Below, in pieces: positions 1,889-27,771 of a stretch of 36,319 nucleotides of DNA; position 1 is the first letter of the stretch; each line of letters opens with the position of its first letter. The translations under genes and the position numbers were made by a program. This DNA is from an uncultured SAR86 cluster bacterium. Its GTDB lineage: Bacteria; Pseudomonadota; Gammaproteobacteria; Magnimaribacterales; D2472. Location of the stretch: contig CABYCI010000007.1 of assembly GCA_902517425.1 (NCBI GenBank), positions 1-36,319 on the forward strand. Direction: 5' to 3'. Under the pieces are notes generated by a model. That model saw only the letters and a program-made list of their open reading frames with translations, made no database searches and was not told the DNA's origin.

Positions 1889-3601
1889 TTATCTAAACAT
1901 ACTTAGAAACTTTAAAAATAGAGTTGATCCTCCTATAACTTCAATTTTTCCAGAAGCAAGTGACGATACAGGGGATTCAAAACCTACTAAAATTTTCTTG
2001 AATTCTATTTCGTCTGTTTTGATATAGAGATCACATTCCTTTTGCTTTATGTCCGATACAACAGCAACATCATTTCTTATATCTATGTTTTTTGTGATAC
2101 CAGATGAAAAATCAAAACAAGCAGTCAATTCTTCGTTTGTTAGCTCGGGGTTAAATCTTACAGATAAAACATTAAATAAAGTATCGATAGATATCTGCTC
2201 TAGTAGTTCTTCTGTTCTCTCAATTAAGATATTGCTTTCAAAATCTTCATTTAATTCTAAGGCAGATGTAAGAAAATAATTTCTCTTATTTGGATTCGAC
2301 GATCTAGAACCCTCATAAATTAATGCTTTTTTTCTTAGATCTTTTACTTCATCAACATAATAATCAAGAGTTATCAAATGATCACTTAGTTCAAGTGCCC
2401 ACTGCATATCCTCTTTTTTAACAGCAGAATATAATTGTTCAAGAAGCATTTGATCTCCACCTGCTAATTTTGATATTCTGATTGCCCTCTCTTTTCTTGA
2501 AAGAGGGTCTAACTCTGAAGGATTTCCATTAAACCAACCTAAATAGCCATTAAATATACTTTTTACAGACCACCTAACTGTTCCATAAAACTCATAAAGA
2601 TAAGGTGATTTAGCTATATGTTCTGGTAGTTTAATAAGCTCAGCTATTTGATCTGGATATAACCCTTCATTCATTAGTCTAATTGTTTGATCATGAATAT
2701 ATTGAATGGCATCTCTATATATAGTTAAAATTTCTTTAATTTCTTTCTTTCCAATAATAGGTTTTGTATGGCTTGGGAAGAGGAATTCTGCATCAAACGT
2801 CTTCATATGATCGATGCTGTTAACCCACCCTATTACATCTCGATGAGTTGTGCCTCTTATCGTGTAAAGGTTTGGGAAGGTTTTGTATACATTATCTCCA
2901 GGCAACAATGCTTTATGGTCAGGCAACCAGACAAATAATTGATCATTGGTTTCGCCTGGTGCATGAAAAAGTTCAATCTTTATACCGGCAATATTTAGTT
3001 CAAGATTATCATTAAAGATGACATCTGGTCTTATATAGCCAGTAGGTGATTTAGCAACATTTAAACTTGGCCCTATTCCAACGTTTATAAGGTCTTCCTC
3101 AGAGAGCAAAGTTCCAAACATTCTATTGCTTCTCTCGGTAATAATTGGATTTAAAATTCCCATAATCCTTTGAACATAAAAATCAGTATCTTCATGGGCA
3201 ATAATTTGTGGCCTCTCATCCTGATTATTCACATAAAAGGCAGTTCCAAAAGTATGATCTCCATGGTTATGGGTATATATGATTGCTTTAATAGGGTTTG
3301 AATTCTTTTTACTAAATAATGAGTAAATTTTTTCTGCTTCAAAAACACTATCTGAAGCATCAATTATAATATTACCCTCTTTACCCTCTACCATAATGGA
3401 GTTTGCAATACCAAATCCAATTGCAAAATGAATAGCTCCACCAGGAGTATCATATGAAAGAACCTGTCTATCAAACTCTTTAGAATGTTGTATTAATTTT
3501 TCCACTTCAGAGGTAAGAGGTACCTCAATGTCATAAGAAGATGGCTTTGAGCAAGAAATAAGAAATATTGAAAGTAATAATATTAAATGCTTTTTATACA
3601 A
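1889..3601 (-). CDS. Lipoprotein metallo-beta-lactamase-fold hydrolase, alkyl-sulfatase (SdsA1)-like
   Basis: A 570-residue exported hydrolase. The N-terminus is a lipoprotein signal with lipobox LISC (Cys17), so it is probably anchored in an envelope membrane facing the periplasm. A metallo-beta-lactamase domain follows, with the zinc motif HNHGDH at residues 111-116 and a later PSHTKP segment. The NLYTIRG stretch and the helical region after about residue 330 match the alkyl-sulfatase dimerisation region of SdsA1/YjcS enzymes, which release sulfate from alkyl sulfates; the final ~120 residues fit the SCP-2-like C-terminal domain. Where SdsA1-type enzymes have AEN with a zinc-binding Glu, this protein reads PGDN, so an acidic ligand is Asp or the site differs. 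A sulfatase role is therefore likely but not certain. It lies 11 nt after the DUF4136-like lipoprotein gene on the same strand. Confidence 0.8.
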   Translation of the reverse strand: MYKKHLILLLSIFLISCSKPSSYDIEVPLTSEVEKLIQHSKEFDRQVLSYDTPGGAIHFAIGFGIANSIMVEGKEGNIIIDASDSVFEAEKIYSLFSKKNSNPIKAIIYTHNHGDHTFGTAFYVNNQDERPQIIAHEDTDFYVQRIMGILNPIITERSNRMFGTLLSEEDLINVGIGPSLNVAKSPTGYIRPDVIFNDNLELNIAGIKIELFHAPGETNDQLFVWLPDHKALLPGDNVYKTFPNLYTIRGTTHRDVIGWVNSIDHMKTFDAEFLFPSHTKPIIGKKEIKEILTIYRDAIQYIHDQTIRLMNEGLYPDQIAELIKLPEHIAKSPYLYEFYGTVRWSVKSIFNGYLGWFNGNPSELDPLSRKERAIRISKLAGGDQMLLEQLYSAVKKEDMQWALELSDHLITLDYYVDEVKDLRKKALIYEGSRSSNPNKRNYFLTSALELNEDFESNILIERTEELLEQISIDTLFNVLSVRFNPELTNEELTACFDFSSGITKNIDIRNDVAVVSDIKQKECDLYIKTDEIEFKKILVGFESPVSSLASGKIEVIGGSTLFLKFLSMFR

Positions 3602-7003: not shown

Positions 7004-7624
7004 CTAAAAAAATAAAAATCTTTTTTTCTTTAGCTCTTTTGCGCATCCCCAATATTGTTGTTGATACTTTGTAGACCTATTTTGAACTCTATCCGCAACT
7101 TTTATGAGCCATTGCTTTTTTCTGTAAGTTTTTTTCTTAAAGCCACCATAACCTTCATGATATGCAAGATAAAGTGATCTTGCGTCAGTCTTTTCAAAAC
7201 CTTGATAATAGCCCTTACTTGCATACCAGCCAATAAAATCTGCTGAATCATTGAAATTCTTTCTACTTGCCCTGCTATTACCTGTTTCATCTTTATAATC
7301 ATCCCAAGTTTTTGAAAGTGCTTGAGAATAACCAACAGCTGAAGACGGCCTAAACCATGGAATGAAACCTAATACCTTTTCTCTCTCAGGCCTTGCATCA
7401 GCCTTGAAGCTTGATTCTTGATAAACAAATGACATTAAGACATAAGGTGGTACTTTCCATCTTTTTTCACTTCTAATTACAGCCTTATACCAACTTTTCT
7501 TTTCTTTAAAAATTAAGCAAATATTGTCAGGGCTTTCAGGTGGTTTAGTGGCACATGATTGAATAATTATTACAATCATTAATAGCAAAATAGGATTTAA
7601 TTTAAATTTTTTCATCTTTTTCAA
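7004..7624 (-). CDS. Lytic transglycosylase-like lipoprotein (SLT domain)
   Basis: A 206-residue lipoprotein with a basic N-terminus, a hydrophobic stretch and lipobox IQSC (Cys24). The mature part is a lysozyme-like transglycosylase domain: the probable catalytic Glu70 lies in VYQESSF, followed by the GYSQALSKTW segment typical of this subfamily and an AYHEGYGG segment near the C-terminus. Enzymes of this type cut the glycan strands of peptidoglycan, here from an envelope membrane. The start overlaps the end of the DNA ligase gene by 23 nt, so it is probably expressed with the ligase by translational coupling; a second Met three codons downstream would also still overlap. It is the last gene of the long same-strand block. 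Confidence 0.85.
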   Translation of the reverse strand: MKKMKKFKLNPILLLMIVIIIQSCATKPPESPDNICLIFKEKKSWYKAVIRSEKRWKVPPYVLMSFVYQESSFKADARPEREKVLGFIPWFRPSSAVGYSQALSKTWDDYKDETGNSRASRKNFNDSADFIGWYASKGYYQGFEKTDARSLYLAYHEGYGGFKKKTYRKKQWLIKVADRVQNRSTKYQQQYWGCAKELKKKRFLFF

Positions 7625-8888
7625 AGCCTCTAAAACTTTTAAATCTTGGAAATCTTAAACTGTAGTATTCTCCGTCTTCATTTTGAGTTACTGCATCTGC
7701 TCTGACTTCAATGAGTCTTCCTATAAGAGCATCTCTAGATTCCCAATAACTATCTCTTTGTTCATCGGTAAGGCCACTTCCAACACTCAATGAGAAAAAT
7801 TTTCCATCATCATTGCCCTCAACATGAAATGCACCTAACTTGCCTTCATGCTTACCTGTACCTTCTTGAATATCTGTAACTTTAAGAGTTACTTCGATAA
7901 AAGGTTTAATTTTTAACCATGCGTGACTTCTTTTACATTCGTAGAAGTTATCATTTGGTTTTATCATTAAGCCTTCAAAACCCATATCTAGAGCTTCTTT
8001 ATTCATTTTTGAAAACTTTTCTTGACCACTTTTTTCATCAAAATTAATAATCTCATAATCCACTAATTTAATTTCTTTTTCAAAATTTTTTGAAAGTTTA
8101 TCAAGCTCATTTTTCCTTTCAAGAGAATTGAGAATACTTTTACCCTGATTGAATTCTTTTAAAGGCAGCATATCAAAAAGCGCTAAGTAAGCATCTTTGG
8201 TTTTTGCACCTGATTTTCTATAAACTTGTTTCATTAATGCTTGAAAATCCTCACTCATAACCTCACCGTCAAGCACTAAGTTATTAAATTCAGATTTACT
8301 AAGGGCGTTTTCAATATGATTAAAATTATGAAATATTTTTCCGTTACGGCTATATAAGGTTGCTTTGCTGTTTTTAATAATTGCAATTACCCTAACTCCA
8401 TCATACTTATATTCAACTAAGCAATTACCTTTAATTTTTTTTGGATGTTTGGCTCCATCATGAGCAAGCATACAAGAAAAAACTGGAACACGAAATTTCA
8501 TATCCATTTTTTTTGCAACATTGTTTACAGTTTTTTCACTTACTCCGCATCTAAGATCTTTAATTAAAATTCTTCTATACCAATTATTCCATTGATCTTT
8601 AGTTGATAAATCCATCAGTTCAATTATTAGATCCCTGGCAGCATGTCCTGTGCGATCTCTGTCTATTAAAAGCTTTGCTGAATCTCTAAAATTAATCCAA
8701 CTAAGGCCAGCACCATCTTTTTCAGATTCAGGAACTTGTTTTACTCCAAAAGTGACTAATGAGTCTAAGCACATTGCTAGGCCTTCTTGAAAATCTATTT
8801 CTTCTAAGTATTTCTGTAAAACACCTTCTTTAAAGAGACGGCTATTATCGCTTTCCAATTCTTTAATAATTTCCCAAGAACGTATCAT
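7602..8888 (-). CDS. ATP-dependent DNA ligase, phage T4-like
   Basis: A 428-residue DNA ligase with an N-terminal helical DNA-binding domain (about 1-150), an adenylation domain (about 155-330) and an OB-fold domain (about 331-425). Motif I is KYDGVR with the AMP-accepting Lys161; LDGE at 206-209, GFEGLMIK at 303-310 and WLKIKP at 324-329 are motifs III, IV and V. The N-terminal domain, with RTGHAA and KDLRCGVS segments, resembles T4-type phage ligases more than bacterial LigD or Haemophilus-type ligases. There is no signal peptide. It seals nicks using ATP. It starts directly after the zipA stop (TAA then ATG), the slot normally held by NAD-dependent ligA in smc-zipA-ligA clusters, so it may be the replicative ligase here; that role is inference. 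Confidence 0.92.
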   Translation of the reverse strand: MIRSWEIIKELESDNSRLFKEGVLQKYLEEIDFQEGLAMCLDSLVTFGVKQVPESEKDGAGLSWINFRDSAKLLIDRDRTGHAARDLIIELMDLSTKDQWNNWYRRILIKDLRCGVSEKTVNNVAKKMDMKFRVPVFSCMLAHDGAKHPKKIKGNCLVEYKYDGVRVIAIIKNSKATLYSRNGKIFHNFNHIENALSKSEFNNLVLDGEVMSEDFQALMKQVYRKSGAKTKDAYLALFDMLPLKEFNQGKSILNSLERKNELDKLSKNFEKEIKLVDYEIINFDEKSGQEKFSKMNKEALDMGFEGLMIKPNDNFYECKRSHAWLKIKPFIEVTLKVTDIQEGTGKHEGKLGAFHVEGNDDGKFFSLSVGSGLTDEQRDSYWESRDALIGRLIEVRADAVTQNEDGEYYSLRFPRFKSFRGFEKDEKI

Positions 8889-9503
8889 TTAATTCTCAGC
8901 CCTATTAAGTTGATTAATTCTCTCTATATCTTGAGCCTTAGATTCAATATGAGAAATCATTTGTTTGGTTATTGGTGTTCTTTCCTCATCACAAAGATTT
9001 GCATGAAATTTCTCAGAAAAATTAATTGAGAATTCAATCATTTTTTTGACTGTTATTAGTGGATCTTCGATCATGCTTAAGTCTGATACAACAACGATTG
9101 CAAATGATTTTGTATCGTTTTCAAATGTCCCTGGGTTTAATGCATTAATTATTCTAAATTTTTCAATTCCATTTTCATCAACCATTGAAAAGTATTTATT
9201 TTTAATTTTTGCACCATAGTTTGATAAGAAACCAAAGATTTGATCGATATCAAAAATAGACTTATCAACAGATATTAAATAAAAACATGCTAATTCCTGA
9301 TGATTTTGAGATTCAAATAGATCTATGGGTGCCTCTTCTTGCAAATTATTATCTTCTTCTATTGTATCGAATGGGTCTGGTATTGATTCAATTTTTACTT
9401 TTAAATTACCTGCATTAGATACTTTTCTAATAAATAAAAAAACAATTATCAAAAAGAATAATATAGCTAAGCCGATTAGATAGATTTCAGAGTTTATTCC
9501 CAT
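8889..9503 (-). CDS. zipA: Cell division protein ZipA
   Basis: A 204-residue protein with an N-terminal membrane anchor (about residues 7-26, very hydrophobic), a short acidic linker, and a C-terminal domain (about 60-195) that matches the ZipA FtsZ-binding fold: an early CFYLISV strand, a DIDQIFGFLSNYGA helix and a long helix containing FSEKFHANLCDE. ZipA tethers FtsZ to the inner membrane at the division site and occurs in Gammaproteobacteria. The linker is far shorter than the long Pro/Gln-rich linker of E. coli ZipA (total about 330 residues), in keeping with genome streamlining. Its ATG follows the smc stop immediately (TAA then ATG) and its own stop abuts the ligase start, so all three genes look co-transcribed. 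Confidence 0.88.
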   Translation of the reverse strand: MGINSEIYLIGLAILFFLIIVFLFIRKVSNAGNLKVKIESIPDPFDTIEEDNNLQEEAPIDLFESQNHQELACFYLISVDKSIFDIDQIFGFLSNYGAKIKNKYFSMVDENGIEKFRIINALNPGTFENDTKSFAIVVVSDLSMIEDPLITVKKMIEFSINFSEKFHANLCDEERTPITKQMISHIESKAQDIERINQLNRAEN

Positions 9504-11702
9504 TTATGATTCAGCTAATTTTAGCGCTTGATTGACGTCGACTGATACCATTCTTGACACACCAGCCTCTTGCATTGTTACCCCCATAAGATAGTCGCTT
9601 CTTTCCATTGAAACTTTATTATGGGTAATAAAAATAAATTGAACAGATTTAGACATCTCTTCAACCATATTTATAAACCTTAGTGTATTTAAGTCATCAA
9701 GAGGTGCGTCAACTTCATCAAGAAGACAAAATGGTGCAGGATTTAGTTCAAATATTGCAAAGACTAGAGCTAATGCAGTTAATGCTTTTTCTCCACCTGA
9801 TAATTGTGAAATTGATGAATTCTTTTTACCAGGTGGTCTGGCCATCAATATAACCCCTGCATTTAAAGGATCATCATCTGTAAGGGTTAATTCAGCTACC
9901 CCGCCACCAAATAATTTTGGAAACATCTCTTTAAGTCTTGTATTTACAGCATCAAAACTGTCTTTAAAGATTGTTTTAGTTTCATTATCAATCTTTTTAA
10001 TTGCTCCAGTAAGTTTTTCAAGCGCGTCCATTAGATCTTCATATTGTTCGTCTAGTTCTTCTTTTCTTTTTGATTCTTCTGAAATTTCCTCAGGTGCAGC
10101 AAGATTTATTGCTCCAAGCTTAATTATTTTTGTTTCAACATCAGTTAATTTATCTTCGATTTCATCAAAAGTCGTATCTGCATAAATATCAAAATTAATA
10201 GAGTTTATATCTATTCCAGCTTCTTTAATTTTTTTATTTGAATTTTCTAAATTGATTTCATATGTTTTAAGTTCAATACGCACATTGGTAATTTTTTCTG
10301 AGATTGCTCTTGAGTCTAAATCAGAAATTGCTTTTTTATTCTCAAGTTCTCGTAAATCTTCATTAAATTTAGATTGTCTTTGTCTTAGCTTTATTAGTAC
10401 TGATTCAGCATCAGAACTCTTTTCAACAAATTCTTTCATCTCTAGCTCTATTGAAGTTTTAAGTTTTTCTGCTTCATCAATCTGCACCTCAAGTTCGTTT
10501 TGTCTTGAAAGATATTCACCCGTTAAAGATTTCGATTGTGCAGTAGCTATATTTAAAATATCTACTAAAAGTTTCTTTAATTCTTGGGCTTTATTTCCTA
10601 TATTATCTTTGTCGATTCCAAACTTTTCTATTGTATGGATTATATTGTCTAAGAGATGCATAGCTTTTTCGCTAGGACTTAATTCATCAAAGTTTTTTTC
10701 AGTTTCTTTGGCTTTCTCATAATTTTGTTTAGCTCTTTGAAGGTTGTACTTTGTTTCTGATTCGGATTTATTAATATTTTGGAGATTGGCTTCTCTTTTT
10801 GCGATTTCTGCACCAACAGCATAAAAGTTCTTTTGTGCTATCTCATATTCACCCAATACAGAATCATTTTCAGTTCTGTATTGATCAATTTGAGATTGAA
10901 TGGTGTCACACTCGGAGTTTTTAATTTTTAGATCTCGGTTATGAGAATCTAGTTTTTTTTGAAGATCATCTCTATTATTTTTGGCTTCTATTGAAAACAA
11001 AACTGCCTTGTCTAATTCTAATTTAGCTTTGTCTTGTTTGAGTAAATTATATTTCTCAGCAGCTTTTGCTTGATTTTCTAATCTTTTAATTAATCTTGCA
11101 ATTTCATCTCGTATATCTTTTACTCTAGATAGATTCTCTTTAGTCCTCTTAATTCTAGATTCTGTTTCTTTTCTTCTTTCCCTATATTTAGAAACGCCTG
11201 CAGCTTCTTCTATATGAGTTCTAAGTTCGTCGGGTTTTGCGCTTACAAGCTTACTTACCATTCCTTGCTCAATAATTGCATATGAGCTTGGTCCAAGACC
11301 TGTGCCAAGAAAAATATCTTGAACATCTTTTCTTCTGCACTTCGTATTATTTATGTAATAGTCAGACTGTGCATCTCTGGTCATAACTCTTTTAATTGAG
11401 ACTTCATTAAAAGAAGCATATTCGCCACCAATCTTTGCACTTGAGTTATCAAATAATAATTCTATGCTGCATTGTCCTGAAGCTTTTCTTTTTTCTGAGC
11501 CATTAAATATAACATCGACCATTGATTCACCTCTTAGATTTTTGGCAGATAATTCACCAAGAACCCATCTTACAGCGTCAATTACATTAGATTTACCACA
11601 GCCGTTGGGGCCAACAACACCAACCAAATTTGTAGGGAAAGAGATTTTCGTTGGATCAACGAAACTTTTAAAACCTGATAGTTTTATGTGTTTAAGCTGC
11701 AT
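9504..11702 (-). CDS. smc: Short SMC-family chromosome segregation ATPase lacking a recognisable hinge
   Basis: A 732-residue SMC protein; bacterial SMC is usually about 1150-1200. The N-terminal half-head is intact, with Walker A GPNGCGKSN at 31-39 and a normal EQGMVS segment near 145-150. The C-terminal half-head is intact, with signature LSGGEKA at 634 and Walker B CLLDEVDAPLDD near 659. Between them run two coiled-coil stretches of similar length (about 165-336 and 396-575). They are joined by about 60 residues (337-395) that are helix-like and show none of the glycine-rich alpha/beta features of an SMC hinge. There is no CxxC zinc hook either. The frame is continuous without stops. SMC works in chromosome compaction with ScpA/ScpB; whether this short form does is unknown. 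It heads smc-zipA-ligase. Confidence 0.9.
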   Translation of the reverse strand: MQLKHIKLSGFKSFVDPTKISFPTNLVGVVGPNGCGKSNVIDAVRWVLGELSAKNLRGESMVDVIFNGSEKRKASGQCSIELLFDNSSAKIGGEYASFNEVSIKRVMTRDAQSDYYINNTKCRRKDVQDIFLGTGLGPSSYAIIEQGMVSKLVSAKPDELRTHIEEAAGVSKYRERRKETESRIKRTKENLSRVKDIRDEIARLIKRLENQAKAAEKYNLLKQDKAKLELDKAVLFSIEAKNNRDDLQKKLDSHNRDLKIKNSECDTIQSQIDQYRTENDSVLGEYEIAQKNFYAVGAEIAKREANLQNINKSESETKYNLQRAKQNYEKAKETEKNFDELSPSEKAMHLLDNIIHTIEKFGIDKDNIGNKAQELKKLLVDILNIATAQSKSLTGEYLSRQNELEVQIDEAEKLKTSIELEMKEFVEKSSDAESVLIKLRQRQSKFNEDLRELENKKAISDLDSRAISEKITNVRIELKTYEINLENSNKKIKEAGIDINSINFDIYADTTFDEIEDKLTDVETKIIKLGAINLAAPEEISEESKRKEELDEQYEDLMDALEKLTGAIKKIDNETKTIFKDSFDAVNTRLKEMFPKLFGGGVAELTLTDDDPLNAGVILMARPPGKKNSSISQLSGGEKALTALALVFAIFELNPAPFCLLDEVDAPLDDLNTLRFINMVEEMSKSVQFIFITHNKVSMERSDYLMGVTMQEAGVSRMVSVDVNQALKLAES

Positions 11703-11728: not shown

Positions 11729-12514
11729 TTATAACTCTTGTGGTTTTTTTAACCATTCATTTGAATTAATTTTATATGTATTAGTAGGGCTATTTTTGTT
11801 TAAGACTATTAAATTTTTAGATAAGAAACTATCCATGTTATCTTTACAAAATACATTAATATCTAATTCAATTGTTTCATTATTTAAATAAGCAGATGCT
11901 AAATCAAACCCTGGAATGATACTGTTTGCATTGGTCAACGTAACATCATAAATATTTATAAACTCAGTTTGAGCAATCGGTATATCGGGGCCATTCATTA
12001 TCAAAAGTTTTATAATTCCGTTATCTATTAAACATGGAAGTTCTGAACTTTTATCAATATCGAAACTAGCAGAAATAAATTCAGGAAATTTAGCATTTCT
12101 CAAGTTTGTATAAAGTTCGTAAAATAATACTTTTTCATTATTTGAAGTAAAAAAATTTTCTGAGAAAGCAATCATGCTTTCAGCTGATTTTAATTTATTT
12201 AGCTCAATAGATTTAGAAATTAAATTAATCATCCAGATCTTTAATTCATCTTCATTAAGTGAGCTTTCTACCTCTTTCAAGTATTCCTTGGAGATTGCAG
12301 CATCTATATAGATTTGATCAAGGATCTTATCAGATAATATTTGATTATTTAAACTCCCAAGAACAGCAAATTTGCTAACAAAAGCGATCAAACACAAAGA
12401 AAGAACTATTACTGATGAACCTAAAATAATGCCTTTATTATTAGTTTTCTGCGACAAGAGATAGGCTATTATTGGAAATGCCGCTAATAATAATAATAAA
12501 TAAAATATTATCAT
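11729..12514 (-). CDS. ccmI: Cytochrome c maturation protein CcmI-like (short, divergent)
   Basis: The chosen start is the ATG at 12514, which overlaps the ccmH stop as ATGA; a longer frame starting at 12580 would overlap ccmH by 70 nt and is unlikely. The 261-residue product begins with two membrane segments, like the N-terminal part of CcmI. A helical, TPR-like periplasmic stretch (about 65-135) follows, then a C-terminal beta-rich domain containing PIAQTEF and SIIPGFDLASAY, which line up with the PLAVKR and MMPGRKLSDF segments of CcmI. CcmI binds apocytochrome c and hands it to the CcmF/H ligation complex. It is well below the usual ~400 residues, so part of the TPR region seems lost. Position directly after ccmH supports the call; similarity alone is weak. 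Confidence 0.68.
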   Translation of the reverse strand: MIIFYLLLLLAAFPIIAYLLSQKTNNKGIILGSSVIVLSLCLIAFVSKFAVLGSLNNQILSDKILDQIYIDAAISKEYLKEVESSLNEDELKIWMINLISKSIELNKLKSAESMIAFSENFFTSNNEKVLFYELYTNLRNAKFPEFISASFDIDKSSELPCLIDNGIIKLLIMNGPDIPIAQTEFINIYDVTLTNANSIIPGFDLASAYLNNETIELDINVFCKDNMDSFLSKNLIVLNKNSPTNTYKINSNEWLKKPQEL

Positions 12515-12885
12515 TGAATTTTTCTTCTTACAAAAAAGAAAAATAATCCAAGTATCAATACTCCAAAAGGTGAAAACCACAAAATGTATGTTTCACTGCT
12601 AAATTCAGGTTCGTAAAGCGAGTCTTTACCAAACCGTGTGGTGACATATTCTTTTATTTCATTATCTGTTTTATTTGAATTAATCATTTGTGCTATTTTT
12701 TGTTTTAAATCTTCTGAAATTGGAGCATTTGAACTTGATAGAGATCCAGACGTACATTTTGGGCACCTAATATCATTTAAAAGTTTATTGAATCTTTTTT
12801 CGTCTTCATCATTTGAAAATTCATACACCGCTCCTGAAGAAACAACTAAAGAAAAAAATATTAAAAATATATTTACATATCTCAT
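12511..12885 (-). CDS. ccmH: Cytochrome c maturation thiol-disulfide protein CcmH
   Basis: A 124-residue protein if translation starts at the ATG at 12885, which overlaps the ccmG stop (TAATG) and has AAGGA about 9 nt upstream; the frame also extends to an ATG at 12933 inside ccmG, which is less likely. It has an N-terminal signal/anchor, the redox motif CPKC at 41-44 in the conserved RCPKC context followed by SNA, a helical bundle, and a C-terminal membrane segment with a short basic tail. CcmH keeps apocytochrome CXXCH thiols reduced for heme attachment and works with CcmF, CcmG and CcmI in the periplasm. It corresponds to the short, unfused CcmH form; CcmI is separate downstream. Confidence 0.9.
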   Translation of the reverse strand: MRYVNIFLIFFSLVVSSGAVYEFSNDEDEKRFNKLLNDIRCPKCTSGSLSSSNAPISEDLKQKIAQMINSNKTDNEIKEYVTTRFGKDSLYEPEFSSETYILWFSPFGVLILGLFFFFVRRKIQ

Positions 12886-22120: not shown

Positions 22121-24907
22121 TTAATAATCAAATCCAAACTGTAAGCCCCAAGTTCTTCCATCAGAGAAAGATCCATAAAGCTGTCCACCCTGAAGATTAC
22201 TTGCGGTTCTTAAACCTTGAAGTTGTCTTTCATCAGCAAGGTTCTTAGCATACATTCCTACATACCAATCACCATTACCAGGAGTGAATCTTACAAGTAG
22301 ATCCCAATATTTCGTTGCAGGAATTTCCATTCTTGCATCCTCAAATATACTTGCGTTACCTTCTCCTCTGTATCTGTAAGACAATCTTGCTGAAGTTTCA
22401 CCTCTAGTACCAGGGAAAACCTGTGTTAATGAGAGACTGTAAGATAAATCAGCAGTACCAGGTAATGAGTTACCTTCAACACTTACTGGTATACCTTGAG
22501 CAACAGGACAAGGAGAACCAGCTAAAGGTGCAAAAGGTGCTGAAAGACAGTTATAACCACCAGATTTATATAGAATGGTTCCATCTGCAAATGCTGCTCC
22601 AGTTAAAAGCCCAGTTGCATTTCCAACAGGACCAAGATCAGCAACTTTCAATGCTGGTATAGGATTTAGGTAATTAATAAGTGATGTATCACTTGTTACT
22701 TCATTTGTAAGAGCTAACCAATTAAGCATAACGCTTGTGTTTTCTGATAAAAATACATTCATCATCCCTTCAAAACCAGTTATTTCTGCATCCAAGTTAT
22801 AGTTAATACTTGCATCATCAACAATAGCAGCAACTAGCATACCTTTGTTATCATTTCTAAATATATTCATATTTAAGAGCATAGCTCCATCCATTAATAT
22901 ACTTTTAATACCAAAATCTAGTACACCTGTTTCTTCTTGATCATAAGTACTTGAACTTGAACCGGCATTAACACCACCAGCTTTAACAGCAGTTGTGTAA
23001 CTACCATAAATCATTACGTCATCATTGAGATAACGCTGAAGTGCTAATTTATAAGATAATGAATCGTCAGTAACTAGTCTTGGATCTCTTATGCCAGGGA
23101 CATCTGAATGTTTATCATAATTCCATCCTCCTAGTGCGACATATGCATTTCCAAGTAAATCATTAAAGTTATTACTGTTTACAGTGAAATCATCATAACG
23201 AGCACCAACTGTAAGCATAGTTTGCTCGTCAAGATCAAAGTACATTTCACCATAAAGTGCTTGTGATTTTGTTCTAACATGCTGATCACTTAAAGTACCT
23301 CTTAAATCAACGGGAACTACAACATCAGGCATAGCCATAAGTGCAGCAACAGTTGCCTGATAAGTACCAAGGATTGTTGCAGCCTGAACTGGATCCGTTA
23401 TTGCACCACCTTGTAAGGCAAGAAGATTTGGAAGTTGTGGTAAAAGCCCTTGAAGAACTGTCTGATAAAATACAGCTCCACCTTTGCTTGAAAAATCTAA
23501 TCCAAGTAAACCTTGTAAAACCGGGTTGTATGGATGTTGAGCAAAACTACCAATTAACTGAGTACCAGTTGTTTGAACTCTGTATTCATTGTCTGATCTA
23601 TCGTCATAATTATAAAAACCAGCAGAAAAGTTAAATGCTCCATCAAAACTAGAAGTGAAATTTATTTCTGCCTGATTGTTTTCTGTGAATACATCTGAGA
23701 AGTCATATGTTCTATCAGTGTCAGCAAATTCACAAAATTGTACATCGCCTCCAAAACATACAGTAGCTGCAACTGGAGCTAGTCCAAGTCCAGCACCTGC
23801 TCCAAGCAGGGGTACTGTAGAATAACTTCCATCATTATCATTCATCTGATGAAATTCTCTTGTTTGATACGTATATTTAATCATCATTTGAATTTCATCT
23901 GTAAGATCATGTTTGAGTGTCAAATTTGCATATTCTGTTTCCTCAAAGTGAGTTGGCTCTCTATCTAAATAAAGTGTATCGAACTCATCACTTAAGGATG
24001 CGCCATATTTGTTAACAATTGTTCCTGGATCTAAGTGAGCAACAAAACCAACAAAGCCGGCAACATGCCCCCTTGTATCAGCTGCTGTGTTTAATGGTCC
24101 TCTTTCATATGGAGAACAACCAAAGAATTGATCTTGAGAACAAAAAGTAACTTCTTCTTGTGGTCTGTTGTCATCATTCTGTTGATATTGATATGTAAAT
24201 TCTAAATCAGTTTTTTCACTTATATCAAAATCTAAAGATAATCTAACACCAATATCATTTCTGTCATCAAAGTCATTTCCAGTAACTGGGTTATTGACCA
24301 TACCATCTCTAGTATTTGACATTAATGCTATTCTTGCTTTGACAGTATCTGAGAATGGAAGATTAATTGCTGTCTGAATTCTTTGGCTGTTATAGTTACC
24401 CATTTCTGCTTTTACATAACCTTCAAGTTCGCTAGTAGGTCTTGCAGTAATTAAGTTAATAACACCTTGAACTGAGTTTCTACCATTTAGAGTACCTTGA
24501 GGTCCTTTTAAAACCTCTATTCTTTCCATATCAATAAAACCAAGGCCAGCAAACTGACTTGTTCCTACACTGTGACCGTTTATATTCATTACGATAGATG
24601 AAACTACTGCAGCACCAATACCATATGATCCGATTCCTCTTAGCGAGTATGAAGAACCATTACCGATAACTTTTTGAGTTTCAAAACCAGGAACAACATC
24701 AGCTAAGTCTGAAGCATCATAAATTTGTTCATTGTCAATCATGTCAGCTGTATAAGCTTCTAAAGATAATGCCAAATCTTGAGTTGACTCTTCTTTCTTA
24801 GTTGCGGTAACAATTACCTCTTCAACCTCTTGAGCGACTATTGAAAAAGAAAAAGATAAGGCTAATGTGAAAGTAAAAAATAATTTATTTAAGTTATTAG
24901 TAAACAT
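22121..24907 (-). CDS. TonB-dependent outer-membrane receptor (paralogue 1)
   Basis: A 928-residue outer-membrane receptor. A signal peptide (about residues 1-25) precedes a TonB box-like EEVIVTA (about 29-35), a plug domain (about 45-160) with LKGPQGTLNGRN, and a 22-strand-type barrel ending in a terminal aromatic, GFDY. It imports an unknown large substrate using the proton-motive force through TonB-ExbBD. Extracellular loops hold three cysteine pairs (C256/C264, the CFGGDVQFC pair, and the CLSAP..GSPC pair), all shared with paralogue 2, so disulfides are likely. The ribosome site is a G-rich run (TGGGGGA) 6 nt before the ATG. It is the downstream member of a tandem duplication; its gene has its own terminator and a possible operator and promoter. 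Confidence 0.95.
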   Translation of the reverse strand: MFTNNLNKLFFTFTLALSFSFSIVAQEVEEVIVTATKKEESTQDLALSLEAYTADMIDNEQIYDASDLADVVPGFETQKVIGNGSSYSLRGIGSYGIGAAVVSSIVMNINGHSVGTSQFAGLGFIDMERIEVLKGPQGTLNGRNSVQGVINLITARPTSELEGYVKAEMGNYNSQRIQTAINLPFSDTVKARIALMSNTRDGMVNNPVTGNDFDDRNDIGVRLSLDFDISEKTDLEFTYQYQQNDDNRPQEEVTFCSQDQFFGCSPYERGPLNTAADTRGHVAGFVGFVAHLDPGTIVNKYGASLSDEFDTLYLDREPTHFEETEYANLTLKHDLTDEIQMMIKYTYQTREFHQMNDNDGSYSTVPLLGAGAGLGLAPVAATVCFGGDVQFCEFADTDRTYDFSDVFTENNQAEINFTSSFDGAFNFSAGFYNYDDRSDNEYRVQTTGTQLIGSFAQHPYNPVLQGLLGLDFSSKGGAVFYQTVLQGLLPQLPNLLALQGGAITDPVQAATILGTYQATVAALMAMPDVVVPVDLRGTLSDQHVRTKSQALYGEMYFDLDEQTMLTVGARYDDFTVNSNNFNDLLGNAYVALGGWNYDKHSDVPGIRDPRLVTDDSLSYKLALQRYLNDDVMIYGSYTTAVKAGGVNAGSSSSTYDQEETGVLDFGIKSILMDGAMLLNMNIFRNDNKGMLVAAIVDDASINYNLDAEITGFEGMMNVFLSENTSVMLNWLALTNEVTSDTSLINYLNPIPALKVADLGPVGNATGLLTGAAFADGTILYKSGGYNCLSAPFAPLAGSPCPVAQGIPVSVEGNSLPGTADLSYSLSLTQVFPGTRGETSARLSYRYRGEGNASIFEDARMEIPATKYWDLLVRFTPGNGDWYVGMYAKNLADERQLQGLRTASNLQGGQLYGSFSDGRTWGLQFGFDY

Positions 24908-25062: not shown

Positions 25063-27771
25063 TTAAAATGTTGTTCCAAATGCAATACCCCATGTTCTAG
25101 GATCAGTAATAGTGGCGAATTTTGCACCACCTTGTAATCCTGAAGCGGCATACCATGAGCCAACATATTTATCATCAGCTAAGTTTTTAGCTTCAAACTT
25201 AAGATACCAATTTGCACCATTTGGACGATAAGTAACTGATGCATCCCAGAACTTATGCTCACCAACTCTAGTAGTATCTTGGTTATAAACATCACCTTCT
25301 CTCTCACCCATAAATCTATAAACCATTCTTGCAGAAGCAATACCATTGGTTGTAGCAAAATCTTTATTTAGACCTAAGCTATAAGATAATTCTGGTGATT
25401 GTGGTAATTGATTTCCTGCAACATCAACAGGCGTTCCAAGTCCGGCAGTAGGACAAGCAACTCCACCTAATGGATTAAATGGAAGGGTACACATGTAACC
25501 TGCTGATTTAAATACATTACCTAAATCAGTTGTTGTTATTGCCAAGGCTCCTTGTGGGTCTATATTGACTCTGTTACCAAGACCTGATGTAGCATTTAAA
25601 ATATTTACAGGGTTAATTAGGCTTAATTCAGTGATTTCTGTATCAACCTTTAACCATGTCAGATCAATGCTTGTTGTTTCGTTTAAGAAGAATAATAAAT
25701 TTCCTTCAAATCCATTAATCTCAGCATCTGTATTAACGTTTCTTGAACCAGCATTAACAATAGATGAAATTAACATTCCATCAGTTGTGTTTTGGAAATA
25801 TGCTGCATTAAATAACATTGCCCCATCAAGCAAAATACTTTTTGTGCCTATTTCAAATACGCTAGTTTCTTCCTGATCATAAGGATCTGGTGTTCCTGTA
25901 GAGTTAGGGTTGTTTCCTCCTGCTTTAGTTGCAGTTGTGAGACTTGCATATACCATTTGGTTGTCTGATAAATTATGCTGAATTGCAAACTTATATCCTA
26001 AAGCATCGTCTGTTTCTACAACTTGTGTCGGATGGAACCCATATTCACCACTAGCTTTTTGTGAAGCAGGATATCTTGGGCAACTAAAGAATGTTAAACA
26101 TGATGCAACACTGTCTTTAACAACATCATCATTGTATCTTAGGCCCATTGTTACCATGGTATCTTCTGAAAGGTCATAATAAACCTCACCCATGATTGCA
26201 AATGATTTTTGCCTTACATGATCTTCATTTATGAATCCTTGAATAGGTGTTGGAGTTGTATAACCATTTAATAAAACTGGTAATAAAGCTGCATTAAATC
26301 CAGATAAGGCCCAAGGAACAAAGAAATCAGTAGATCCTGAACCAGTAAGGGCGCCACCAAATAAGGTTGCATTATATGGATGTAATCCACCATCGGAAAT
26401 TAAGTTCCATGAAGCGGTTTGAACCTGATAAACATTTGTTGTTGTGTAATCATAATGATAAGCACCGACAACAAAATTAATTGGTCCATCTAAATCTGAA
26501 ATTATAGATATTTCAGCTTGTCTCGTTTCAGATTCAACATTAGCGAATTCGTATGTTCTATCTGAATCGATTGTTTCACAAAAGCCTGAACCTTTTATTC
26601 CGCCAAAACAACCTACCCATTCCATTGGAATAAAGGATGCTGGATGTCCAGGTGGGAAAAGTCCTGGAAATTTTTGGGTAGCTACAGAGTAATCATTATC
26701 ACCCATGTGATAATAATCTCTCGTTGAATATGATACTTTTGCAACCATTTGATAATCATCGTTAATATCATGATTGAGTTGGAGAGTTGTCATTTCAAAG
26801 ATTTGTGCATGCTCTGGATCTCTGTTGATATTTACCTTATCGAGTGAATTTAGAACGGTTGCACCAGCATATGAATTGTTATCAGCTGTACTATTTAAAC
26901 CAGCGATAAAGTTAAATATTGCTGCAGTACTTCCTCTTGTATCAGCCGGCTGTCCATATGTTCCAGTTTCAAAGGGATCGCAACCAAATACTGGATGAGA
27001 AGCACAAACTATTATTCCAATATTTTGTCTATTGTCATCACTTTCTGATCTGTCATGAGTAAATTCAAGTGCTGTACTATCTGAAATATCCCAATCAACA
27101 GAAAATCTTAATCCATATTGTTCTCTTCCATCAATATCATTTCCAGTATGAATATTCTCTATGGTTCCATCTCTTTCAAACGTTGTATATGCCAATCTTG
27201 CAGCAACGCTGTCACTAAAAGGCATATTCAACATTAAATTGGTTCTTGTTGAATTTAAATTACCATTTGCTAAATCAAATGAACCTTCCCACTCTGAGGT
27301 TGGTCTTGCTGTAATAACATTTACAAGGCCTTGAACTGCGTTTCGGCCATTTAAAGTTCCCTGTGGGCCTTTAAGAACCTCAATTCGCTCTATATCGTGA
27401 AAACCAATTTCAGCTATAGATGAGCTACCATATTCATGCCCATTCATAGAGACAACAAGCGATCCTACAACAGCAGCTCCAACACCATAGGAACCAACGC
27501 CTCTCATAGAATATGAAGCACCTGATCCGATAGCTTTGTCTGATATTAAACCTGGAACTACTTCAGCCAAGTCACTAAAATCATCAATCATATTGGTATC
27601 AATAGATTCTGATGTGAATGCCTCTACAGAAACTGCAAGGTCTTGTATTGATTTTTCTTTCTTAGTAGCTGTAACAACAACTTCTTCAATTTCTTGAGAA
27701 ACAATATTTAACGAGAAAATTAAAGAAAAGCATGCACAAAAACTAAATGTAAGTTTTATAAATTTGTTCAT
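25063..27771 (-). CDS. TonB-dependent outer-membrane receptor (paralogue 2)
   Basis: A 902-residue receptor clearly homologous along its length to the neighbouring receptor: signal peptide, TonB box-like EEVVVTA, plug with LKGPQGTLNGRNAVQG, barrel ending in a terminal Phe (FGTTF). The three loop cysteine pairs of paralogue 1 are kept, and a fourth pair (CLTFFSC) is present only here. Loops between the shared barrel strands differ strongly in sequence, which suggests different ligands or epitopes after duplication. The ATG has a run of seven G as ribosome site (27777-27783) 5 nt upstream, an unusual feature in this AT-rich DNA. It has its own hairpin terminator at 25016-25048 and about 120 nt of upstream DNA before yidD. 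Confidence 0.95.
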   Translation of the reverse strand: MNKFIKLTFSFCACFSLIFSLNIVSQEIEEVVVTATKKEKSIQDLAVSVEAFTSESIDTNMIDDFSDLAEVVPGLISDKAIGSGASYSMRGVGSYGVGAAVVGSLVVSMNGHEYGSSSIAEIGFHDIERIEVLKGPQGTLNGRNAVQGLVNVITARPTSEWEGSFDLANGNLNSTRTNLMLNMPFSDSVAARLAYTTFERDGTIENIHTGNDIDGREQYGLRFSVDWDISDSTALEFTHDRSESDDNRQNIGIIVCASHPVFGCDPFETGTYGQPADTRGSTAAIFNFIAGLNSTADNNSYAGATVLNSLDKVNINRDPEHAQIFEMTTLQLNHDINDDYQMVAKVSYSTRDYYHMGDNDYSVATQKFPGLFPPGHPASFIPMEWVGCFGGIKGSGFCETIDSDRTYEFANVESETRQAEISIISDLDGPINFVVGAYHYDYTTTNVYQVQTASWNLISDGGLHPYNATLFGGALTGSGSTDFFVPWALSGFNAALLPVLLNGYTTPTPIQGFINEDHVRQKSFAIMGEVYYDLSEDTMVTMGLRYNDDVVKDSVASCLTFFSCPRYPASQKASGEYGFHPTQVVETDDALGYKFAIQHNLSDNQMVYASLTTATKAGGNNPNSTGTPDPYDQEETSVFEIGTKSILLDGAMLFNAAYFQNTTDGMLISSIVNAGSRNVNTDAEINGFEGNLLFFLNETTSIDLTWLKVDTEITELSLINPVNILNATSGLGNRVNIDPQGALAITTTDLGNVFKSAGYMCTLPFNPLGGVACPTAGLGTPVDVAGNQLPQSPELSYSLGLNKDFATTNGIASARMVYRFMGEREGDVYNQDTTRVGEHKFWDASVTYRPNGANWYLKFEAKNLADDKYVGSWYAASGLQGGAKFATITDPRTWGIAFGTTF

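Follow-up and report, generated by a model that had tools for sequence, protein, structure and literature searches.

Whether the SMC hinge serves as a DNA gate, as part of the motor or as a mere clip is a long-standing question. It is raised by one gene in the window, that is, the whole analysed stretch of 36,319 nucleotides from an uncultured bacterium of the SAR86 cluster, which is abundant in the ocean. The product of this gene has both ATPase half-heads of an SMC protein and no recognisable hinge; the questions are whether it is still the chromosomal Smc of these bacteria, whether the hinge has truly been lost, and how two subunits could be held together without it.

Anatomy of the gene and its product

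The smc gene (9504..11702, minus strand) runs unbroken from an ATG start to the stop and encodes 732 aa, as an earlier note on this DNA had described it without naming a strand, and its Walker A, signature and Walker B motifs are all intact, distributed over two terminal half-heads. The N-terminal half-head (residues 1-170; 11193..11702, minus), delimited by the sequence and an AlphaFold2 model, includes the Walker A motif GPNGCGKS (residues 31-38; 11589-11612, minus). The C-terminal half-head (residues 546-732; 9507..10067, minus), placed in the same manner, carries the signature LSGGE (residues 634-638; 9789-9803, minus) and the Walker B motif LLDE (residues 660-663; 9705-9725, minus), all three motifs being read from the sequence. 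The N-terminal arm (residues 171-340; 10683..11192, minus) is a single helix in the model, and the C-terminal arm (residues 366 to about 545; 10068..10607, minus), defined by the model and a motif, contains the conserved GAINLAA at residue 530. The apex (residues 337-395; 10518..10694, minus), defined by the model and sequence searches, occupies the position of the hinge in other SMCs and consists of a conserved LSPxEKA motif, a helix at 343-359, a turn at 360-365 and the start of the return helix.

The AlphaFold2 monomer model of the window protein (44 sequences, mean pLDDT 81.5, pTM 0.51) comprises an SMC head, helices at 171-340, 343-359 and 366-494, the turn at 360-365 and a tip without strands, with a pLDDT of only 54-66 at 341-380. 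The antiparallel coiled-coil arms are thus predicted only, and the helical hairpin that stands at the apex in place of a hinge is predicted with low confidence in that very part. The helices come close to the nearly equal arms (165-336 and 396-575) and the apex (337-395) that the earlier note had proposed, and the confident hinge fold at 337-395 that it had named as grounds for refutation is not predicted. A Foldseek search with the model returned SMC heads first, and its best 50 matches comprised such heads, SMC complexes and two Rad50 chains; this result informs little about the tip.

The NCBIfam model SMC_prok_B (TIGR02168) matches the window protein in two stretches with 805.6 bits (cut-off 567.35), and the SMC head families of Pfam are matched as well. 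The window's own genome, 60% complete (0.93 Mb, 49 contigs), contains no other SMC match at E ≤ 1e-3. Judged from its sequence, the protein is an orthologue of bacterial Smc by descent, not a canonical hinge-dimerised SMC. It resembles bacterial Smc in the half-heads, the ATPase motifs, a GxINLAA motif near the head, the zipA gene order and the presence of ScpA, ScpB and ParB genes, but it differs in that SAR86 Smc has no hinge, in a Tyr218-to-GxINLAA distance of 312 rather than 742-753 residues, and in a tip predicted to be a helical hairpin.

Hinge searches and the spread of the short form in the SAR86 order

The Pfam SMC_hinge family (PF06470) had no match in the window protein, even at E ≤ 1, and none in any of 203 genomes of the SAR86 order, in a search in which 10 of 14 named control genomes were positive. 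In a sample of 274 genomes from the class, 217 matched; the sample includes three genomes of the SAR86 order, all hinge-negative. Because Pfam overlooks some hinges, a separate hinge profile was trained on 30 of 60 full-length SMCs, the other 30 being held out. It recovered all 30 held-out proteins, each with at least 99.7 bits, and all 19 full-length SMCs from Pfam-negative class genomes (33.9-173.4 bits), and it gave no match, at E ≤ 100 with the filters off, among the order's 81 sequences, of which 80 are near-complete and one is the fragment L038. An HHpred-type check had been suggested in the earlier note; when hinges were compared profile to profile with 21 of the order's SMCs, only the coiled-coil flank aligned (probability 4.6), with no similarity to the hinge. 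A profile of 14 gammaproteobacterial hinges likewise matched 0/203 genomes of the order (it had no positive control of its own; a similar profile was controlled), and the apex sequence gave only weak matches among solved structures (best E 0.12). CxxC is absent from the window protein and from all 80 near-complete SMCs of the order, anywhere in the sequence.

A degenerate hinge lying under the Pfam threshold is ruled out by the controlled profile together with the profile-profile comparison, and a zinc hook at the apex by the lack of CxxC in 80 of 80 SMCs. By these comparisons, the hinge is lost rather than merely diverged in the SAR86 order. The short SMC with both half-heads and arms of nearly equal length and without hinge or CxxC, as first described, is borne out by the sequence, the family searches, the hinge profile and the model alike.

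The order is divided into four families, f1 (that of the window), f2, f3 and f4. An smc match was obtained in 178 of its 203 genomes; the 25 without one may reflect incompleteness. Of 107 genomes in the window's family, 94 matched, and among the matches listed there are 62 intact short frames of 729-749 codons, in the window, 25 further genomes of its genus and 36 others of the family, and 25 intact long frames of 998-1010 codons. Seven genomes have the gene cut at contig ends, split or broken (G006, G012, G024, G036, G044, G063 and G064); in G044, the long-form smc (L038) has an in-frame TGA in the listed match, so that the gene is broken or a sequencing error is present. Protein sizes, read from 80 loci including L038 with its broken frame, are discrete: 727-734 or 995-996 aa in f1, 809-810 in f2, 821-827 in f3 and 732-736 in f4. 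The comparison set of 80 near-complete SMCs (727-996 aa; 45 short, 22 of middle size and 13 long) includes L141 from another uncultured SAR86 cluster bacterium, which is 66% identical to the window SMC in the alignment and clusters inside the window's family in the trees; the assignment of the family and the order to SAR86 is inferred from the name of this relative. The 60 full-length SMCs collected, mostly gammaproteobacterial, measure 1137-1179 aa, and no SMC of the order comes near that.

Single-contig genomes covering all four families (G053, G112, G176 and G190) are likewise hinge-less, their SMCs (L028, L062, L074 and L058) being among the 81 sequences of the hinge test. A local collapse of the assembly is excluded because the intact frames of 729-749 codons recur in the 25 same-genus and 36 other family genomes. 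A full-length smc in relatives would have overturned the first description, and none was met in any genome of the order examined. That description concerned a single protein; its hinge-less short SMC stands, and the trait belongs to the whole order as far as examined.

Selection, arm length and other hinge-less lineages

Purifying selection acts on every part of SAR86 smc, with dN/dS well below 1 throughout: 0.023 in the N-terminal (residues 1-165) and 0.043 in the C-terminal half-head, 0.095 and 0.126 in the arms (residues 166-336 and 396-545), and 0.154 in the apex, which is slightly less constrained than the arms. The values come from 26 same-genus loci, of which only 60-141 of 325 pairs were usable, with dS saturating. 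Across the 19 non-redundant sequences among 34 short f1 proteins, LSPxEKA is nearly invariant at the start of the apex, and columns that are at least 90% hydrophobic make up 25% of the apex, 12% and 16% of the distal arms, and 18% and 22% of the head-proximal arm parts, which is nearly the density of the apex. Conservation as such is not higher there, the mean frequency of the top residue being 0.62 in the apex against 0.65 and 0.61 in the distal arms. In only 44 of the order's 80 SMCs, and in one of the four f4 proteins among those listed, does the most hydrophobic window of the arms fall in the middle fifth. The hydrophobic apex is only a partial trend, unequally clear across the families.

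The distance from Tyr218 to GxINLAA is 312 residues in the window protein, 307-312 in short f1 proteins (n=6), 390 in f2 (n=2), 405-406 in f3 (n=2), 575 in the 995-aa forms (n=3) and 742-753 in full-length gammaproteobacterial SMCs (n=5); the GxINLAA pattern went undetected in 5 of the 28 listed. In the forms measured, the stretches beyond these two points hardly vary in length; therefore, the heads and joints are conserved, and the arms and tip are altered. Simple arm steps of 100 residues (PMC5344682) remain unproven by the values 307-312, 390, 405-406 and 575, the share of the apex being uncertain.

The 995-aa form (13 intact; L031-L037 and L039-L044) reads as residues 1-347 of the short form, followed by 228-539 and then by about 396-732. 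Its N-arm copies align without gaps across 116-118 residues (27-52% identical), and its C-arm copies do so across 142-143 residues in 13 of 13 long forms; in L039, the repeats score 295 and 367, whereas 200 shuffles of each reached at most 75 and 79. In a tree of the copies, all 13 inner copies form one clade (support 100/99) and the outer copies interleave with the short forms by genus, so the duplication arose once. As read from these repeats, both arms were extended in one duplication in the window's family, by about 120 and 143 residues. On the head tree of the 80 near-complete SMCs, the long state requires four changes, and well-supported branches force three or more of these; had it been gained once and then inherited only vertically, six separate losses would have to be assumed, or fewer with movement of alleles between lineages. 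By this tree, the long and short forms have switched repeatedly, and gain, loss and transfer cannot be separated from the tree alone.

Hinge-less SMCs were also found outside the order. In SAR11 (Pelagibacteraceae), which is alphaproteobacterial, the SMCs of two loci, L171 (6001-8433, 811 aa) and L186 (6001-8394, 798 aa), have no hinge in a test in which two full-length controls showed one; the finding is confined to these two loci. They pass the SMC_prok_B cut-off with 671.4 and 679.4 bits, respectively. In the AlphaFold2 model of L171, the tip is a plain helix-loop-helix with a six-residue loop at 397-402 (pLDDT about 76-85 around it), and the arm stretches at 243-280 and 534-585 lie below pLDDT 50. 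Outside the order, 54 genomes of the class had no Pfam hinge: three of them are hinge-less, 19 have full-length SMCs with a hinge by the separate profile, and the remaining 32 were partial, unmatched or not taken further. The three (G240, G343 and G455, with L133, L135 and L138) encode SMCs of about 927-944 aa and belong to two gammaproteobacterial families, G343 and G455 to the same one, whose genomes measure about 1.0-1.1 Mb. On the head tree, from which SAR11 is absent, they lie outside the SAR86 group on long branches that join each other, and it remains open from their sequences whether they represent one hinge loss or two. A survey of the phylum gave matches in 203 of 299 genomes; among the matches listed, the open frames reach at least about 1130 aa save for the window (735), G637 (436), G536 (903) and G659 (553). 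The matches listed give no frequency of hinge loss.

Partner genes and proposed pairing without a hinge

Within the order, ScpA and ScpB were each matched in 128 of 148 genomes, and in 39 of the 40 that are at least 90% complete, the search having covered genomes at least 75% complete plus the window's own, where the two genes are adjacent on contig C10 (26900-27511 and 26356-26841, respectively). ParB matched in 41 of 41 genomes, namely, the 40 at least 90% complete and the window's own. An ordinary chromosomal role of SAR86 Smc is regarded as highly probable. Beyond what the data support directly (orthology by sequence, the ATPase motifs, purifying selection, hinge absence and the ScpA, ScpB and ParB genes), the gene would be an ordinary chromosomal smc that has lost its hinge and still supplies the ATPase of Smc-ScpAB, the physical complex being inferred. 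Two Smc subunits would be held together by their apical helical hairpins and by contacts between the arms, with help from ScpA, which would bridge the heads, and from head engagement driven by ATP; ParB would bring the complex to parS, and the chromosome would be organised as by canonical Smc, the helical tip replacing the hinge gate in an otherwise normal Smc-ScpAB cycle. Granted the ordinary role, pairing at the apex or arms appears likely, in the absence of dimer data. The full proposal, a working Smc-ScpAB with its subunits paired via the apical hairpin and arms, the kleisin and ATP-engaged heads, is held with moderate confidence, as dimerisation is inferred and unmeasured.

Dimerisation at the tip is inferred from the conserved hydrophobic columns of the apex and from precedents in B. 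subtilis, and has not been demonstrated. B. subtilis Smc whose hinge has been exchanged for the Rad50 zinc hook sustains normal growth in rich medium, and the authors of that study hold the nature of the dimerisation domain to be uncritical and the arm to be critical (PMC5344682). For hinge-less B. subtilis Smc, arm contacts are said to aid dimerisation (PMC5526789, citing Minnen 2016). Since the zinc-hook swap grows normally, a different dimeriser need not imply different loading, and the inference in the earlier note that a protein without the hinge should load or dimerise differently does not follow. The engineered Smc(Zh) shares with SAR86 Smc the heads and arms of Smc and an unrelated tip, but it is artificial and retains a known dimerising hook, whereas SAR86 Smc has no CxxC (PMC5344682).

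The main rival is a clamp of heads and kleisin without lasting contact at the tip or arms, in which ScpA and the ATP-engaged heads alone would bring the monomers together, as an open V or a clamp that forms only transiently, and not as a closed ring. It is judged rather unlikely, yet it cannot be set aside: no known dimerisation domain lies at the tip in SAR86 or SAR11, the modelled SAR11 tip is a mere six-residue loop joining two helices, and the kleisin and KITE genes are retained. A bare turn, however, would have no need of the LSPxEKA motif, of roughly twice as many always-hydrophobic columns as the distal arms or of purifying selection at the apex, all of which the window's family shows, although this argument is indirect. 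Conversion into a DNA repair protein like Rad50, SbcC or RecN, with loss of the condensin role, would suit the absent hinge and the helical hairpin arms, since Rad50/SbcC and RecN have related heads, hairpin coiled arms (RecN's being helical) and no SMC hinge; the weak matches to Rad50 (at most 52.3 bits) and RecN (33.4 bits), members of the same head superfamily, point the same way. These scores fall far under the cut-offs (700-1087 for the Rad50 group, 1000 for the best Rad50/SbcC match, and 407.85 for RecN), whereas SMC_prok_B passes; the CxxC hook occurs in 0/80, ScpA and ScpB are kept in genomes throughout the order, and no second match at E ≤ 1e-3 exists in the window's incomplete genome, which leaves conversion quite improbable.

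Intact ScpA, ScpB and ParB genes would also fit a hinge provided in trans by a separate hinge-only protein, but neither PF06470 nor the 14-hinge profile finds one in the 203 genomes of the order, many of them incomplete, and the idea is very hard to maintain. An assembly deletion might be suspected in a genome 60% complete and in 49 contigs; it is contradicted by the 62 family genomes with an intact short frame and the hinge-less single-contig genomes of four families, just as a decaying gene is contradicted by dN/dS well below 1 in all regions, so that this last explanation is practically dismissed.

The working Smc-ScpAB remains the preferred reading. Among the closest published cases is an oceanic cluster of "hinge-less" SMCs that is assigned to Actinomycetes (PMC12153180; Sussfeld et al., 2025). 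That cluster likewise has SMC heads and arms, lacks hinge and CxxC, is marine and has no regular SMC alongside, but its clade reportedly branches close to the base of the actinobacterial sequences, whereas the SAR86 SMC is gammaproteobacterial and order-wide, with the ScpAB and ParB genes present and the arms re-lengthened via duplication. SAR86 goes unmentioned in the main text of that paper, and among the papers listed in searches of one open-access library, which leaves out preprints and most subscription journals, none was a report on SAR86 or SAR11 SMC as far as titles and the openings of abstracts show. Set against the 2025 cluster, what is new in the SAR86 case is that the loss is independent and spans an order, that the partner genes are present and that arm length has been reset.

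A broader reading holds that the hinge was lost repeatedly in bacteria with small genomes, some of them numerous in the ocean: SAR86, SAR11, the marine actinobacterial cluster already published and one or two more lineages of gammaproteobacteria. In this reading, the small helical apex of SAR86 Smc is a new dimerisation tip of a fully working Smc-ScpAB, and arm length can be reset when both arms simultaneously gain or lose matching segments. It is put forward tentatively, as possible and somewhat more doubtful than secure; if true, the hinge gate would be dispensable for natural chromosome loading and loop formation. The SAR86 order amounts to a natural experiment in which the hinge was discarded and the ScpAB and ParB genes were retained, and versions of Smc in which the hinge is unneeded or replaced thus exist in nature. 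The smallest Smc in the comparison (727-736 aa) is a target for biochemistry and cryo-EM, and arm-length models can be tested on natural proteins, since among close relatives the arms vary by about 120 and 143 residues. All four hinge-less SMCs scored (the window's, L141, L171 and L186) pass the standard SMC annotation cut-off, so others may sit in databases labelled as ordinary SMC.

Directly downstream of smc lies a zipA-like gene (8889..9503, minus; PF04354), and the same family is present in L157, a hinge-bearing gammaproteobacterial locus, and in L007. The order smc-zipA-DNA ligase is common to the window and L157, the only hinge-bearing gammaproteobacterial locus tested for zipA (ZipA and the NAD ligase were tested there, and the NAD ligase alone in L193). 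The gene after zipA (7602-8888, minus) encodes an ATP-dependent DNA ligase, as does a same-genus locus; the two hinge-bearing gammaproteobacteria have an NAD-dependent ligase instead (L157:10393-12402 and L193:10589-12616), and in an f4 locus the next ORF listed downstream of smc is also an NAD-dependent ligase. L007:4332-5195 and L051:4336-5208 also entered the ligase comparison. The ATP ligase is apparently an in-place substitution of ligA, an NAD ligase elsewhere in the genome not being excluded. Between smc and the CcmH gene, a GTG-start ORF of 283 aa (11729-12580, minus) has no Pfam or NCBIfam match and is presumably, from its position, a CcmI-like protein. Farther along the window, two TonB-dependent receptors adjoin each other (22121-24907 and 25063-27771, minus), and a metallo-beta-lactamase-fold protein with alkyl sulfatase dimerisation and C-terminal domains is encoded at 1889-3601 (minus).
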